Source of the DNA: an uncultured Lachnospiraceae bacterium
GTDB lineage: Bacteria; Bacillota; Clostridia; Lachnospirales; Lachnospiraceae
NCBI GenBank assembly: GCA_947174185.1
Contig: CAMWHY010000012.1
Coordinates: 1-38,025 of the forward strand
DNA length: 38,025 bases
Reading direction: 5' to 3'
This document shows positions 10,122 through 18,341 of the stretch, one piece after another. Under the pieces are notes generated by a model, which saw nothing but the letters and a program-made list of their open reading frames with translations, was not told the origin of the DNA and ran no database searches. Each line of letters begins with the position of its first letter. Positions within the stretch are counted from its first letter, which is position 1. A program made the position numbers and the translations under genes.

Positions 10122-11383
10122 GAATTAACAGATTACAGAAAGGTATGGTTTTTGATATGAAATTATTTTTTCAGCTTACAGGTTATGAATTAAAAAAGAT
10201 CTTATGCAGAAAACGCAGTGTTATCACGCTTCTGGTTGTTATCCTTTTGGGGATCTTTAGCGTTTTTGGGACCATTGTGGGAAACTATTACTATATGGAT
10301 GAAAACGGTGAGGAAATAGCTATTTCTCGTTATGAAGAAGCAATGATTGACCGCAGGAACGGCGAGGCTCTTTCGGGACGCGTGGTCGATGCAGACCTTA
10401 TTATGGAGGCTGTGGATGCATACAGGCAGGTGCCGTTAGACAAAATCTATTATGATATTACTCTGGAATATCAAAGTTCGGCGAGAAAATATAGTGATAT
10501 ATGTGAGATCGTCTGCCGGACAATGGATTTGGGTATAGACGAATTTCAACAGCTTACCCGTGAACAGGCTGAGCAGTTTGATCAAATACGAAGAGAAAAT
10601 AAAGAGTATATAATTGAAAATTTGGATATCAATATGAGTGAAAATATGAAGGAATACTGGCGTGAGTGCATAGAAAAATCCCCGGAGACGCTGACTTATG
10701 AGTATAGCGGCGGATATTATCGGTATGTTGTCATTATGTATACGACTGCATTTCTGTCTGCGGCAGCGGTTGCAATCATGATATCCGGGATTTTTTCTGA
10801 GGAGTATGTGAGCGGTGCAGATAATCTGATCCTGTCGTCAAAGCATGGCAAAGGACTTGTGATCGGTGCAAAGCTGCTTGCAGCGTTTGGAATTGCTGAA
10901 GCCCTGATCATTTTCCTTATGGTAGTCAGTTATATCGAAGTAATGGCTGTCTGGGGCACAAGCGGAGCGGACGCTGCCCTCACATTACTAGGGAATATAT
11001 TTGAGTATCCTATTACCATAGGGCAGAGTGCACTGTTCTACTCTATTTGTACGCTTGGGAGTATACTGTTATTTACTGCGCTTACAACATTTTTTTCATC
11101 GGCGTTTAAAACTCCGTTCAATACGATTGTGGTAATGGCGATTATTTTGATTGCACCTATGTTTATAGTCATACCGGACAGCGCGCCTCTCTGGGTGTTC
11201 CAGCTGGAACAACTGATGCCCACGAATATGATGGCGTTCTGGGGAGCAATGAGTGATCTTCAGTATGAAATATTTGGCGTTGTAATTCCGCCTTATGTTT
11301 TTCTTCCTGTATTTGCTATCATTGCTTCCTGCGTCTGTGTCTGTCTGTCGTACCGGATCTTTAAACGTCATCAGGTAGTGTAA
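10118..11383 (+). CDS. ABC-2 type transporter permease
   Basis: 421 aa. One TM segment near the N-terminus (~35-60), a large external loop of ~150 residues, then about five TM helices (~205-230, ~250-280, ~305-330, ~340-360, ~385-412), which is ABC-2 permease topology. ATG 10118 overlaps the ATPase stop (ATGA), with GGAG 7 nt upstream. In-frame ATGs at 10145 and 10157 are alternatives, the last giving MKLFFQLTGYELKK, a more usual beginning. The start region closely resembles that of the exporter at 5.5 kb. Confidence 0.9.
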   Translation: MRINRLQKGMVFDMKLFFQLTGYELKKILCRKRSVITLLVVILLGIFSVFGTIVGNYYYMDENGEEIAISRYEEAMIDRRNGEALSGRVVDADLIMEAVDAYRQVPLDKIYYDITLEYQSSARKYSDICEIVCRTMDLGIDEFQQLTREQAEQFDQIRRENKEYIIENLDINMSENMKEYWRECIEKSPETLTYEYSGGYYRYVVIMYTTAFLSAAAVAIMISGIFSEEYVSGADNLILSSKHGKGLVIGAKLLAAFGIAEALIIFLMVVSYIEVMAVWGTSGADAALTLLGNIFEYPITIGQSALFYSICTLGSILLFTALTTFFSSAFKTPFNTIVVMAIILIAPMFIVIPDSAPLWVFQLEQLMPTNMMAFWGAMSDLQYEIFGVVIPPYVFLPVFAIIASCVCVCLSYRIFKRHQVV

Positions 11384-11411
11384 AAGGGAACGCTAAAGCG
11401 TTCCCTTTAAT
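11383..11411. terminator. Bidirectional rho-independent terminator
   Basis: Perfect 12-bp stem, AAAGGGAACGCT / AGCGTTCCCTTT (11383-11394 with 11397-11408), with A tract before and T-rich sequence after. Lies between the convergent ABC operon (+) and the pyruvate formate-lyase operon (-) and can serve both. Confidence 0.9.
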
Positions 11412-11452: not shown

Positions 11453-11698
11453 TTAGATTGCTTCATGGAATGTACGGGAGATAACATCTGCCTGCTGTTC
11501 CGGTGTTAACTTAATGAAGTTAACAGCGTATCCGGATACACGGATTGTCAGCTGAGGATAATTCTCAGGATGCTTCTGAGCATCTAAAAGAGTATCTCTA
11601 TTTAATACGTTAACATTCAAATGATGACCGCCCTTTGTAGCGTATCCATCTAATAATGATACCAGGTTGTTTACCTGTGTTGCACTTGCTTCTGCCAT
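11453..11698 (-). CDS. Stand-alone glycyl radical domain of pyruvate formate-lyase (GrcA-like)
   Basis: 81 aa, equivalent to the C-terminal end of a full-length pyruvate formate-lyase. It contains [17 protein letters not shown], then [17 protein letters not shown], then the radical loop RVSGYAV with the radical Gly at residue 56, and ends [10 protein letters not shown] radical SAM activase would convert that Gly to a stable radical, passed to the catalytic Cys pair of the partner protein. Here the catalytic protein upstream lacks this domain, so this protein must supply it. AAGGAGG lies 9 nt before the ATG. It resembles E. coli GrcA (YfiD), but there GrcA repairs an intact enzyme rather than completing a truncated one. 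Confidence 0.93.
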
Positions 11699-11721
11699 GA
11701 TAATAATCCTCCTTATATAAA

Positions 11722-11937
11722 TTATTGATAATCATCTAATCCTTGGTGAAGTGTGGGAACACTGCATGCCAGTGGTGTCCTGGAACAGTCAGTGCAGCCC
11801 ATAGTCTGAACATCTTTTTTAGCGTCTGCATTCTCGTCAACATCTACATTCACATGACCGACACCTTTAGAAAAACCATTGTCTAACTGTGCAACCATAT
11901 CCTGTATCAGTTCTTCTTCGCTTTTTGTTGTGCCCAT
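11722..11937 (-). CDS. 71-aa Cys-containing protein between the two parts of pyruvate formate-lyase
   Basis: The first ~35 residues ([21 protein letters not shown]) resemble the start of the glycyl radical domain next door ([21 protein letters not shown]). Where the radical loop would follow, it instead has three cysteines, C48-x2-C51-x6-C58 ([20 protein letters not shown]). The RVSGY loop is absent. It has its own ribosome site (GTGAGG ~8 nt upstream) and 23-40 nt gaps on each side, so it looks like a real gene and not debris. It may be a metal- or redox-binding relative of the radical domain acting on the split enzyme; that role is inference. No pathway assignment can be made from the sequence alone. 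Confidence 0.82.
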
Positions 11938-11976
11938 ACTCAGAACCTCACTTTTTCGTTTTATATAGATACTGTT

Positions 11977-14031
11977 TTATTTCTTGCTCAGGTCGATATC
12001 GATATCACCTGCAAATACCTGATCTTCCTTACCAAGAGCGCCCGGAATGATAGAGAAGGTATTGGAGATACCATCCTGTGCATCCTTAAACGGAAGCTTG
12101 GATACAGAAGCCAGAGAAGCTACCGCACCATGAGTGTCACGACCGTGCATCGGGTTAGCACCCGGAGCAAACGGCTGTCCCTTCTTACGTCCATCAGGTG
12201 TGTTACCTGTTGCCTTACCGTATGTTACGTTAGAAGTAATGGTAAGGATGGAAGTTGTAGGAATACCGTTTCTGTAGGTATGATGTCTTCTGATCGCTGT
12301 CATGAACTTGTGAACGATGTCCTGTGCAATCAAGTCAACGCGGTCATCATCATTACCATATTTCGGGAACTCACCGGTGGTCTCGAAGTCAACGATGACA
12401 CCGTCCTCGTCTCTGATCGGTTTAACAGTTGCATACTTAATTGCAGATAAGGAGTCAGCTACGATGGAAAGTCCTGCAACACCTGTTGCGAAGTAACGCT
12501 TAACATCTCTGTCATGAAGCGCCATCTCAGCTCTCTCATAGCAGTATTTATCATGCATATAGTGGATGATATTTAAGGTGTTAACATATACGTCTGCCTG
12601 CCACTCCATCATATCCATGAATTTTGCATATACATCATCATAATCAAGTACGTCACCGCTTACAGGACGATATTTAGGACCAACCTGTTTCTTGGTAACT
12701 TCGTCAACACCGCCGTTCAATGCGTACAGCAGACATTTAGCCAGGTTAGCACGAGCGCCGAAGAACTGCATTTCCTTACCAACAACCATGGAAGATACGC
12801 AGCATGCAATTGCATAATCGTCGCCGTGGGTTACTCTCATCAGATCATCGTTCTCATACTGGATGGAAGAAGTCTTGATGGACATCTTAGCACAGAACTC
12901 TTTCCAAGGCTGAGGAAGTCTGGTTGACCAGAGAACTGTTAAGTTAGGCTCAGGTGAAGCGCCTAAGTTATTCAATGTGTTCAGGTAACGGAAGGAAGTC
13001 TTTGTTACAAGAGAACGTCCGTCAACGCCTACACCGCCAAGGGATTCTGTAACCCATACAGGATCGCCTGCAAAAATCTGATTGTATTCCGGTGTACGTG
13101 CAAATTTGATCAGACGAAGCTTCATGATAAAGTGGTCAACAAACTCCTGAATCTCTTCCTCTGTAAACGTACCATTCTTAAGATCTCTCTCAGCGTAGCA
13201 GTCGATAAAGGTAGAAGTACGTCCAAGGGACATAGCAGCACCGTTCTGCTCTTTAACGGAAGAAAGGTATCCGAAATATGTTGCCTGAATAGCTTCCTGT
13301 ACGTTAGAAGCAGGTTTGGAAATATCGCATCCATAAGAAGCAGCCATTTCCTTCATCATCTTTAATGCTACCATCTGCTCGGAAAGTTCTTCACGAAGAC
13401 GGATCACGTCGTCAGTCATCACACGTCCTGTGGAATCTTTCTGTGCCTGTTTGTCTTCGATCAGGTAATCAATACCATACAGAGCAACTCGTCTGTAGTC
13501 ACCGATGATACGGCCACGGCCATATGCATCAGGAAGACCTGTAATGATATGGGAGGAACGGCATGCTCTCATTTCTGCATTGTATGCGTCAAAACATCCT
13601 GCATTGTGTGTTTTTCTGTGTGTGGAGAAGAACTCGCTGATCTCAGGATCTACAGTATAACCATTATCTGCGCAAGCTTTTTCTGCCATTCTGATACCGC
13701 CGTAAGGCTGTAAAGAACGCTTAAACGGCTTGTCTGTCTGGAAACCTACGATCTTTTCCTTGCTCTTATCAAGATATCCAGGAGCATGGGATGTGATAGT
13801 GGAGACTACCTTGGTATCCATATCCAATACGCCGCCTGCCTCGCGCTCCTGCTTTGCAAGATCCATAACCTGTGCCCATAAGTCTTTTGTTGCCTGTGTG
13901 GGTCCGCTTAAGAAGGAATCGTCTCCATCGTACGGAGTGTAGTTTTTCTGGATGAAGTCACGTACATTGACTTCTGTCTGCCATTTTCCGGCTGTAAAGC
14001 CTTCCCATTCTGGTTTCATTTCTGTGCTCAT
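11977..14031 (-). CDS. pflB: Pyruvate formate-lyase catalytic body lacking its C-terminal glycyl radical domain
   Basis: 684 aa; converts pyruvate and CoA to acetyl-CoA and formate. The catalytic pair Cys410-Cys411 is present ([26 protein letters not shown]), as are [18 protein letters not shown] and [22 protein letters not shown]. The protein ends at [25 protein letters not shown], the point where normal (~750-760 aa) enzymes continue into the radical domain; that domain is encoded two genes downstream. AGGAGG lies 6 nt before ATG 14031. The activating enzyme is not in this window. The operon order is catalytic body, Cys protein, radical domain. Confidence 0.95.
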
Positions 14032-16015: not shown

Positions 16016-16111
16016 AAGAATCAAGTAAGTTGAAAAGAAAGCAGTAAGAGTTTATGAGAGAAAGGCTGATGCGTTGCATTGGTCTTTTATTGCAAAAAGG
16101 GGGTGGCGGAT

Positions 16112-17620
16112 ATGTTAAAGGATTGGGAGAAGCCGGAAAGACCGTCAGATGAGGAGATTGAAGAACGCCTTTCCAAAGCAAGGGAAGCATTGGCTACAAA
16201 GCAGACTGCCATGAAAGAGCAGAAACTTCCGGTGCTGGTCGTGCTGGATGGATGGGGTACAGCAGGCAAGGGAAGCGTGCTTGGCAGGATCATCCGTAAT
16301 ATTGATCCAAGATTTTTTCAGGTAGAGACAATGGACCGTAAGACAGAAGATGAGAAAAGGAAACCGTTTTTATATCGGTACTTTATTCGGATTCCGGAGG
16401 CGGGAAAATATAAATTTCTTGATGGAAGCTGGATGGATGAAGCGGTTGGAGATTATATTCACGGAAGGCTTAAAAGATCGGAATATAAAAAATATGTGGA
16501 GAGTATTTGTCGTTTTGAACGCCAGCTTACGGATCAGGGATATCTTGTGTTGAAGTTTTTCTTCCATATAGGAAGAAAGGAACAGAAAAAAAGAATAGAA
16601 GGATTGTTGGCAGATAAAAATACAGGATGGCGCGTCAGCGGAGATGATCTTTGGCAGAATAAAAATTATGCAAAATATAAAGAAGTTTATGATCAATATA
16701 TGACGGCAACGAATCTGCCCGCCGCGCCATGGCATCTGGTGGATGCGAAGCATAAGAAGTGGGCAGAGCTGCAGGTTTTGGAAATTTTGATAGAAGGAAT
16801 CGATCATGCATTGGCAGTGAGATCAGGGGGCAATGCAGACAATGCGCATACGTCGTCAGATATGGAAGCAGATGTAATGGCTGATATGAAATTTGCGAAA
16901 ATAATGCCGATCCCAAAGCTGTCTGAGATTCCGTTGGATAAAGCATTATCCGAGGAGGAATACCATAAAGAGCTGGATGAATGCCAGAGTAGATTAAAAG
17001 AATTACATAATATATTATATAGAAAGAAGATTCCTGTTATCATCGCATACGAAGGATGGGATGCGGCCGGAAAGGGCGGCAATATCAAACGTATTACAGG
17101 TGCGCTCGATCCGAGGGGATTTGAGGTACATCCGATTGCGAGCCCTGAACCGCATGAAAAAGCAAGACATTATTTGTGGCGTTTTTGGAACAGACTGCCT
17201 AGAACGGGGCATATTGCAATCTTTGACAGGACATGGTATGGACGTGTCATGGTAGAGCGGCTTGAAGGATTCTGTAGTGAAAATGATTGGCGATCTGCGT
17301 ATCGGGAAATTAACGAATTTGAAAAAGAATTGAGTGACTGGGGTGCCATCGTGATCAAGTTTTGGGTACAGATTGATAAGGATGTGCAGCTGCAGAGGTT
17401 TACCGATAGACAAAATACACCGGGAAAACAGTGGAAGATCACGGAAGAAGACTGGCGTAATCGGGAGAAGTGGGACCAGTATGAGACGGCAGTTAATGAG
17501 ATGCTGCAAAAGACCAATACCACGTATGCACCATGGGTGATCCTGGAGTCTAATGATAAAAAGTACGCAAGGATCAAAGCATTAAAAACCGTAATCGAAG
17601 CTATCGAAAAAAGGATATAA
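16112..17620 (+). CDS. Polyphosphate:AMP phosphotransferase-type PPK2, two domains
   Basis: 502 aa from ATG 16112 (GGGGGTGG upstream; an in-frame ATG at 16079 has no ribosome site). Two tandem PPK2 domains. The first (~38-230) has Walker A DGWGTAGKGS, but its lid reads LDGSWMDEAV. The second (~307-500) has EGWDAAGKGG, HYLWRFWNRLPRTG and the intact lid FDRTWYGRVMVERLEG. In characterised two-domain members (polyphosphate:AMP phosphotransferases) the C-terminal domain is the active one, which fits the degeneration seen here. Product would be ADP from AMP and polyphosphate. Confidence 0.9.
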   Translation: MLKDWEKPERPSDEEIEERLSKAREALATKQTAMKEQKLPVLVVLDGWGTAGKGSVLGRIIRNIDPRFFQVETMDRKTEDEKRKPFLYRYFIRIPEAGKYKFLDGSWMDEAVGDYIHGRLKRSEYKKYVESICRFERQLTDQGYLVLKFFFHIGRKEQKKRIEGLLADKNTGWRVSGDDLWQNKNYAKYKEVYDQYMTATNLPAAPWHLVDAKHKKWAELQVLEILIEGIDHALAVRSGGNADNAHTSSDMEADVMADMKFAKIMPIPKLSEIPLDKALSEEEYHKELDECQSRLKELHNILYRKKIPVIIAYEGWDAAGKGGNIKRITGALDPRGFEVHPIASPEPHEKARHYLWRFWNRLPRTGHIAIFDRTWYGRVMVERLEGFCSENDWRSAYREINEFEKELSDWGAIVIKFWVQIDKDVQLQRFTDRQNTPGKQWKITEEDWRNREKWDQYETAVNEMLQKTNTTYAPWVILESNDKKYARIKALKTVIEAIEKRI

Positions 17621-17702: not shown

Positions 17703-18341
17703 TTATTTTTTGCTTTTTGATGCTGTAGCCTTCTTAGTTGTAGCTGCCTTTTTGGGTGTGGCAGTTTTCTTTGCCGTAGTCTTTTTCGCAGCCGGTTTCG
17801 CAGCGGTCTTCTTTTCTGCAGTCTTAGCAGCCGGTTTCGCGGCAGTCTTCTTCTCTGTAGTCTTAGCAGCTGGTTTCGCAGCAGTCTTCTTCTCTGCAGC
17901 TTTTACTTCTGCCTTTGCAGTAGTAGTTTTCGCGGCAGTGGACTTTTTCGCAGTAGTTTTTTTAGTAGTAGTTTTCTTCGCAGTAGTTTTTTTCACAGCG
18001 GTTTTCTTTGCTGCAGCAGCTTTTGCGGGAATCAGATCTTTTAATTTTAATACGCTTTCAAGATTACCTTCTACAGTGATCTTACCAGCTTCGTAAGCCT
18101 TTACAGCATCCAACTTACCATTGAACAGGTCAACGCAATCCTTTCCTGAGACAATAAGCTTAGCATCGTGGTCATAATATTCATAGGGTTCTATTGCAAG
18201 CGTACCATCTTGGACTTTTACATAAAATGCGCCTTCACCTTCTCCAACAATGTCAACCTGAATGGCTACCTGATCGGCTTTGCTGACATCCACCTTAGCA
18301 AGAGCTTTCTTTGCTGATTTTACAATCTGTTCGTAAGTCAT
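17703..18341 (-). CDS. SCP2-like domain fused to a histone-H1-like Lys/Ala/Pro tail
   Basis: 212 aa. Residues 1-105 resemble the SCP2 sterol-carrier fold (VQDGTLAIEPYEYYDHDAKLIVSGKDCVDLFNGKLDAVKAYEAGKITVEGNL), a hydrophobic-ligand pocket domain. Residues ~106-212 are almost entirely Lys, Ala, Thr and Pro, with three near-perfect EKKTAAKPAAK repeats, like bacterial H1-type DNA-binding tails. The protein should be strongly basic and could bind nucleic acid, polyphosphate or anionic lipid. The polyphosphate enzyme next door is suggestive, but the genes are convergent. Monocistronic. Confidence 0.85.
   Translation of the reverse strand: MTYEQIVKSAKKALAKVDVSKADQVAIQVDIVGEGEGAFYVKVQDGTLAIEPYEYYDHDAKLIVSGKDCVDLFNGKLDAVKAYEAGKITVEGNLESVLKLKDLIPAKAAAAKKTAVKKTTAKKTTTKKTTAKKSTAAKTTTAKAEVKAAEKKTAAKPAAKTTEKKTAAKPAAKTAEKKTAAKPAAKKTTAKKTATPKKAATTKKATASKSKK

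Follow-up and report, generated by a model that had tools for sequence, protein, structure and literature searches.

Pyruvate formate-lyase (PFL) is a main route by which anaerobes convert pyruvate to acetyl-CoA and formate, and oxygen destroys the enzyme at the glycine that carries its radical. The stretch of DNA analysed here (the window) is a contig region of 38,025 nucleotides from an uncultured Lachnospiraceae bacterium (CAMWHY010000012.1, assembly GCA_947174185.1), and it encodes a PFL in separate pieces: a catalytic core (PFL-short), a separate glycyl radical subunit (GRD), and, between their genes, a small middle open reading frame (ORF), named MID. How does a radical enzyme work when its radical domain is a protein of its own, and what does the middle gene contribute? 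Many gut and rumen bacteria carry the fragile part of PFL as a separate 81-aa protein, and oxygen damage could cost them this small subunit instead of the whole enzyme. Judged by its sequence and its distribution, the MID gene is one of two forms of a single cysteine (Cys) element, which is found in split PFLs either as a separate gene (in trans) or on the C-terminal tail of the core (in cis).

The split enzyme and its cysteine element

A sequence-only reading of the window had recognized three genes in place of one PFL, and both their positions (Table 1) and the point of division are borne out by family models. The Gly_radical model of Pfam (PF01228) is itself divided, with positions 1-50 corresponding to residues 621-670 of PFL-short and positions 50-106 to the GRD. 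PFL-short passes the PFL model TIGR01255 (1106.2 bits versus a cut-off of 994.2, over model positions 1-665 of 744), keeps the catalytic Cys pair (C410/C411), and ends in a Cys-free C-terminal tail; the glycyl radical domain that TIGR01255 places on the same chain is encoded here by the separate small gene. The GRD retains the radical motif RVSGYAV, and passes the NCBIfam model NF038360 (GrcA3) narrowly, with 158.3-159.4 bits versus 158. Each piece also has its own ribosome-site-like stretch upstream of the start, as had been noted before: AGGAGG for PFL-short, GTGAGG for MID (the weakest of the three), and GGAGG for the GRD.

The same reading had allowed for a full-length PflB elsewhere that would carry all of the activity. 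The genome (G000) is a draft of 2.96 Mb in 200 contigs, 97.45% complete, and a full-length PflB was searched for in this draft and none was found, leaving a single PFL-like gene. The radical domain must act in trans, and the split looks like the normal state of the enzyme; the role of a spare part for full-length PFL, for which GrcA3 is named, does not apply, as full-length PFL was not found in the genome.

What had been missed is the nature of the middle protein. By hhalign, MID and GRD align over 37 columns (probability 71.6, E 3.5e-5), in a stretch containing LV..LD.G...GVGHVNV; a MID profile finds GRDs, and a GRD profile finds many MIDs, though not every one (E as low as 5e-7). On these profile matches, the first halves of MID and of the glycyl radical domain are homologous, and in MID this half is followed by a Cys motif near the Gly position. 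MID does not have the radical Gly fingerprint of PF01228, and the Cys motif stands instead. Counted from the shared His, the radical Gly follows after 30 residues in 203/203 GRDs, and the third Cys of MID after 30 residues in 106 of 157 proteins, after 29-31 in 142, and within a range of 27-38 in all. At least two Cys follow the His motif in every one of 159 MIDs (149 distinct), three do so in 130, and two to four are gathered in a short stretch, while a Cys after the LD motif occurs in only one of 203 GRDs. The C-terminal Cys motif is near-invariant overall, though variable between loci in detail. The MID alignment (A1) omits the truncated MIDs of L081 and L082, 17 further MIDs, and the MIDs of later loci.

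Existing family collections do not cover this protein. No Pfam family, Gly_radical PF01228 included, matched MID up to E 1, no NCBIfam model scored over its cut-off, and six MID-like proteins scanned against Pfam gave no match. A profile search for a MID chain in the PDB returned no credible match, the best (E 0.0014) being a designed protein found via weak repeats. MID as a precursor of a ribosomally synthesized and post-translationally modified peptide (RiPP) was considered and rejected, the Cys-rich RiPP model TIGR04118 (AC3_0185) scoring 13.2 versus 35 bits, far under its cut-off.

Most split PFLs without MID bear a MID-like Cys motif on their own C-terminal tail, e.g. DCSNGACASPTLFEGLDVE (L086), ECGNQACNIPNIMESIDNE (L109) and GCGDMACKVPTLHKGIDDDDNN (L101), or in shorter tails PDCACCEPN and GCCEGTIE; the spacing of the Cys in the motif is loose (CC, CAC, CSNGAC, CGVDSAC). 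Among the loci of the family, the tail holds no Cys in 72/72 loci with an adjacent MID, and at least two Cys in 35/40 loci without one, each cis tail having two to three. The remaining five of the 40 are four genomes with an unlinked MID (L035, L036, L037, L134) and one genome (G288) without MID; the PFL tails of the unlinked-MID genomes have one Cys (L039) or none (the others). A further set of ten loci came from a class-wide GrcA3 search, and a second set added eight more; 9/10 and 5/8, respectively, conform. Both sets were counted, so that the total of 131 split loci comprises the 112 family loci whose tails were counted, one cis-tail locus (L233), and these 10 and 8; L254 and L255, re-reads of G448 and G288, are counted once, and G170, which has MID and a nearby PFL, lies outside the 131.

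Across these 131 loci, 77 have an adjacent MID, 4 an unlinked MID, 45 a cis tail with at least two Cys, 5 neither, and none has both. Put differently, the 81 loci with MID have tails with 0-1 Cys, the 45 Cys-tail loci have no MID, and the two forms are complementary in 126/131 loci (113/114 within the family and 13/17 outside it). The 77 family genomes with a strong MID match include none with a cis tail, and a genome-wide search for MID in the nine genomes from other families that have a cis tail did not find it. In G092, the C-terminus of the PFL is itself matched by the MID profile (E 2.8e-5), and weak matches of this kind occur in G403, G596 and G498 (E 0.002-0.01), which suggests that the PFL tail and the final part of MID may have a common origin. 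The idea of a two- or three-part enzyme, as first put forward, thus needs to be narrowed: the enzyme is naturally multi-part, but the middle gene is not essential to the split. The idea that MID marks every split PFL is likewise rejected, about a third of the loci having a cis tail instead.

Table 1. Features of the window (positions within the 38,025 nucleotides).
Feature	Positions	Strand	Description
PFL-short	11977-14031	minus	684 aa, PFL catalytic core lacking the radical domain
MID (middle ORF)	11722-11937	minus	71 aa
GRD (separate glycyl radical subunit)	11453-11698	minus	81 aa, NCBIfam NF038360 GrcA3
Inverted repeat	11383-11408	no strand	AAAGGGAACGC, loop TAAA, GCGTTCCCTTT; just beyond the GRD end; found by eye
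513-aa ORF	16079-17620	plus	resembles two tandem polyphosphate kinase 2-type halves (by eye)
212-aa ORF	17703-18341	minus	long Lys/Ala/Thr-rich repetitive C-terminal half, histone-like make-up

The inverted repeat past the GRD is a possible two-way terminator, and was not listed by a consensus scan.

Spread, gene order and history

It had been proposed to look in Lachnospiraceae for PFL-short and GRD genes as neighbours, and for conservation of the gene between them. We sampled 299 family genomes, almost all from different genera by design, and a search with MID alone found it in 77. A profile built from 57 MIDs gave the same 77 genomes as strong matches (E 7.5e-13 or better), and the weaker matches, among those listed, fall on the first halves of GRDs, on MID-like paralogues or on the ends of PFLs. 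A split PFL is present in at least 114 of the 299 genomes (112 tail-counted, plus L233 and G170), in line with the earlier supposition that the arrangement is common in the family. MID was not found in G004, the only same-genus genome searched.

The order PFL-MID-GRD is kept in all 29 of the other loci first fetched, and throughout the MID loci read later with the exception of four. Three of these are G297, G282 and G002, in which MID is located away from the other two genes (adjoining proBA in two genomes), and PFL-short stands with GRD, with pflA between them in two; in G006, which is 67% complete, MID (L061) has no adjoining PFL or GRD, and a PFL looked for in that incomplete genome was not found. 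A scan of named genomes, from which the best 80 of 439 relatives were kept, was picked by MID and is counted apart from the 131 loci. Nearly all of these best 80 are titled Lachnospiraceae or Clostridia, with single records of Roseburia, Blautia, Robinsoniella and Acetatifactor, and they include cultured isolates, e.g. Lacrimispora saccharolytica An861 (L212) and Lachnospiraceae bacterium YSD2013 (L191). PFL-MID-GRD is found in 77/80 of the named loci, with pflA next in 50 of these, and the PFL tail is Cys-free in all 79 that are readable; the three exceptions to the order are L156 and L219, each without one outer gene near a contig end, and L162, which has an extra PFL fragment. The median ratio of nonsynonymous to synonymous substitution rates (dN/dS) is 0.099 for MID (284 pairs, 79 sequences) and 0.069 for GRD (1860 pairs, 78 sequences), and the MID gene is under purifying selection.

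A quick tree of 111 PFL cores was built with tails left out, 11 canonical full-length enzymes as outgroup, and support from the Shimodaira-Hasegawa-like approximate likelihood ratio test (SH-aLRT) only. The remaining 100 rows separate from the 11 outgroup rows (support 93), and many forks in the tree are open. The catalytic Cys pair stands in ACCV or SCCV in 103/111 rows, the other eight being canonical full-length outgroup rows. Seven full-length enzymes are nested at two places among the 100 rows, which with the outgroup makes three changes between split and full-length, and the history reads as one split and two re-fusions. The six-row re-fused clade (support 100) has a Cys-free linker before the radical domain; among the matches listed, its genomes hold no MID match better than 1.1e-5, and those matches that could be placed are the enzymes' own radical domain. 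The cis and trans forms are interspersed, with 15 changes on the best tree, and the starred branches force at least six changes for the trans form and at least four for the cis form.

Several further observations concern relatives of these parts. In the genome of the window, a single activase passes the PflA cut-off (299.4 versus 231.75 bits), encoded on a different contig (G000:C115:7305-8003), and there are two GRDs. The second GRD, an 83-aa open frame at G000:C2:48127-48354 (L041:8107-8355), is an orphan not located near any PFL, and is possibly a spare part. A second family of small proteins, also with a GRD-like first half, ends in YHHGRCD(I/V)GSPWA(C/K)G and is scattered beside housekeeping genes, with one member in the window's genome (G000:C10:33121-33288; L132:4050-4319) and others at L133, L136 and L138; Pfam gave no match for the four that were scanned. 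At L248:1447-3582, the open frame of a PFL core is interrupted (ORFs of 291 and 420 aa), yet its tail has the Cys motif; this may be a pseudogene or an error in the sequence.

A putative role for the element

Going by the work on E. coli GrcA and YfiD (PMC8683613 and PMC12338860), the GRD would bind the PFL-short core, the activase PflA would install the radical on the GRD, and the radical would be transferred from there to the C410/C411 pair, so that after oxygen damage replacement could be limited to the 81-aa GRD. Such an exchange of a damaged radical subunit, which the sequence-only reading had also suggested, is plausible because of this E. coli work and of the orphan extra GRD in the genome. 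The role that we hold most likely for MID is that its GRD-like half would occupy the empty seat of the radical domain, and would bring its Cys pair near the radical-Gly position, beside C410/C411, where the dithiol may cap the site or re-reduce the catalytic cysteines and then yield to a fresh GRD. In other split PFLs, the Cys-pair tail of the core would do the same job. We therefore put forward, tentatively and as our leading proposal, that the enzyme is a PFL of two parts whose radical subunit can be exchanged, and that a dithiol element, supplied in cis or in trans, serves the vacated active site. The wider version is possible, and is offered with more reserve: the split PFLs of Clostridia would be dithiol-serviced radical enzymes, in which a tail or a dummy radical domain, being interchangeable, keeps the cysteines usable when the radical subunit is away and then hands the site back.

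A number of observations weigh against this proposal. E. coli PflB functions without any known Cys element of this kind. Five of the 131 split loci (those of G288, G448, G649, G548 and G486) show neither form, and outside the family they make up four of the 17 loci; because of these five the Cys element is not indispensable, and a strictly essential element is rejected. The cis tails have no GRD-like half, and the seat-taking step is thus not needed everywhere. The correspondence between Cys and radical Gly comes from counting residues across a loop of 27-38, the Cys spacing in MIDs is variable, and the MIDs at L081:4150-4314 (G012) and L082:3766-3948 (G026) stop after the second Cys (CTDCAK and CTTCSQ, respectively), with the third lost. 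A re-fused full-length enzyme inside a MID clade (support 97), L127 (L127:1200-3521), has a Cys-rich linker, TCGCEEVTCAV, ahead of its radical domain. A phylogenetic contrast found four well-supported independent pairs, with a mean of 3.9 in the expected direction, none opposed and a median p of 0.125, and is suggestive only, because the well-supported pairs are too few for significance.

MID resembles the remnant that is missing from truncated E. coli PFL, and this likeness leads to two readings, the seat-taking dithiol described above and a loading adaptor. As an adaptor, MID would be a trans version of residues 696-733 of cut E. coli PFL, recruiting the GRD and aiding PflA, with cysteines that only shape the binding element. 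According to PMC8683613, these residues are required for good binding and activation of the spare domain: with YfiD, PFL 1-695 forms 32-fold less radical and shows no binding in isothermal titration calorimetry, whereas PFL 1-733 works. PFL-short ends near residue 695 (residue 673 of PFL-short being aligned with residue 681 of the E. coli enzyme), and MID corresponds to the GRD first half up to the radical position, both as expected of an adaptor. However, two or more Cys are almost always present, which points to thiol chemistry or metal binding, and the cis tails that replace MID share the Cys motif only, not the half-domain. Because of these tails, and because the six-row re-fused clade is without the motif, we prefer the dithiol reading, and consider an adaptor rather doubtful.

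If the thiols acted on the radical itself, MID or the tail could be an off-switch, quenching the glycyl or thiyl radical without substrate or on the arrival of oxygen. A Cys at the Gly-equivalent position would suit this, and a precedent may be seen in the accessory subunit BSS-beta of benzylsuccinate synthase, which leads to a loss of activity, potentially by quenching (PMC12590467). A tail-borne quencher would, however, have to be restrained during catalysis, and re-fused enzymes would need a switch equally, yet six of the seven are without the motif, which makes an off-switch unlikely. Binding of a metal or an Fe-S cluster, by which the motif would form a structural clip between core and GRD, would account for the clustered Cys of all 159 MIDs and of the cis tails, but seems improbable in view of the loose spacing, of the frequent occurrence of just two Cys, and of a lineage-dependent order of Cys loss. 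Gene decay, a frameshift or an assembly error, with MID as a broken copy of the GRD, could be suspected from the kinship of MID with a GRD whose radical motif it does not have, and from the interrupted PFL at L248. Against it stand the order kept across genera and in cultured isolates, the near-invariant motif, the low dN/dS of MID and the fact that this is the sole PFL of the genome; its probability is negligible, and we regard frameshift, decay and misassembly as ruled out, for the frameshift in agreement with the view first taken from the sequence.

Comparison with known systems

The E. coli system of PflB with GrcA/YfiD is alike in that a radical domain in trans passes its radical to the core Cys and needs PflA (PMC8683613, PMC12338860), and, according to the latter, GrcA sustains formate production when PflB is without its radical Gly. 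Of the 34 PDB chains matched by the GRD, YfiD ranks first (6owr, E 3.6e-25). The difference is that GrcA repairs a full-length PFL, whereas the core here never has a domain of its own; GrcA is moreover a protein of 127 aa with a disordered N-terminus, compared with the 81 aa of the GRD. Nothing equivalent to MID or to the Cys tail is known to us from E. coli. The name of NF038360, GrcA3, implies a repair cofactor as well, whereas the GRD is apparently a standing subunit, and this name did not occur in any of the papers listed in the search on it, subscription journals being mostly beyond the coverage of this and the other literature searches.

The closest solved relatives of PFL-short are two PDB entries titled 'Formate acetyltransferase', 38la (1109 bits) and 38lb (1141 bits), versus 1000 bits for E. 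coli PFL. Each appears to consist of a core lacking the radical domain, because the 34 PDB chains matched by the GRD include neither of them. Past its core, 38lb has ..GECDMC and then a further 42 residues, and 38la may be a cut construct; no paper on either was found among those listed in the literature searches. What is already known comprises stand-alone radical domains that serve as repair factors, the name GrcA3 given by NCBIfam, and the structures 38la and 38lb, so that such enzymes are evidently under study. Among the papers listed in the literature searches, none was found to describe a PFL that is normally split, MID, or the Cys element in cis or trans, and MID is new in the sense that we could not find this component described there.

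Benzylsuccinate synthase offers a second likeness, in that a small accessory protein regulates the radical behavior of a glycyl radical enzyme (PMC12590467), although its accessory subunits bind [4Fe-4S] clusters and the enzyme retains its own radical domain. In ribonucleotide reductase (RNR), a dithiol serves the active site of a radical enzyme as a C-terminal tail (PMC4520616 and PMC5704485), and in the split class II RNR NrdJa/NrdJb the Cys pair sits on the small subunit NrdJb (PMC4520616). A conserved Cys pair at a C-terminal end, in cis or in trans, is likewise found in the 126 complementary loci of split PFL. This likeness is functional only, and homology is not claimed; RNR also requires re-reduction at every turnover, whereas PFL is not known to. 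A Cys element that sits on the tail or on a separate gene, and is absent from the larger re-fused clade, would point to an unrecognized step in radical-subunit exchange, and the access of a spare radical domain to its core becomes approachable with a few small genes. If the proposal is true, the element would be to PFL what the dithiol tail is to RNR, and would add a third, undescribed component to an enzyme central to fermentation.

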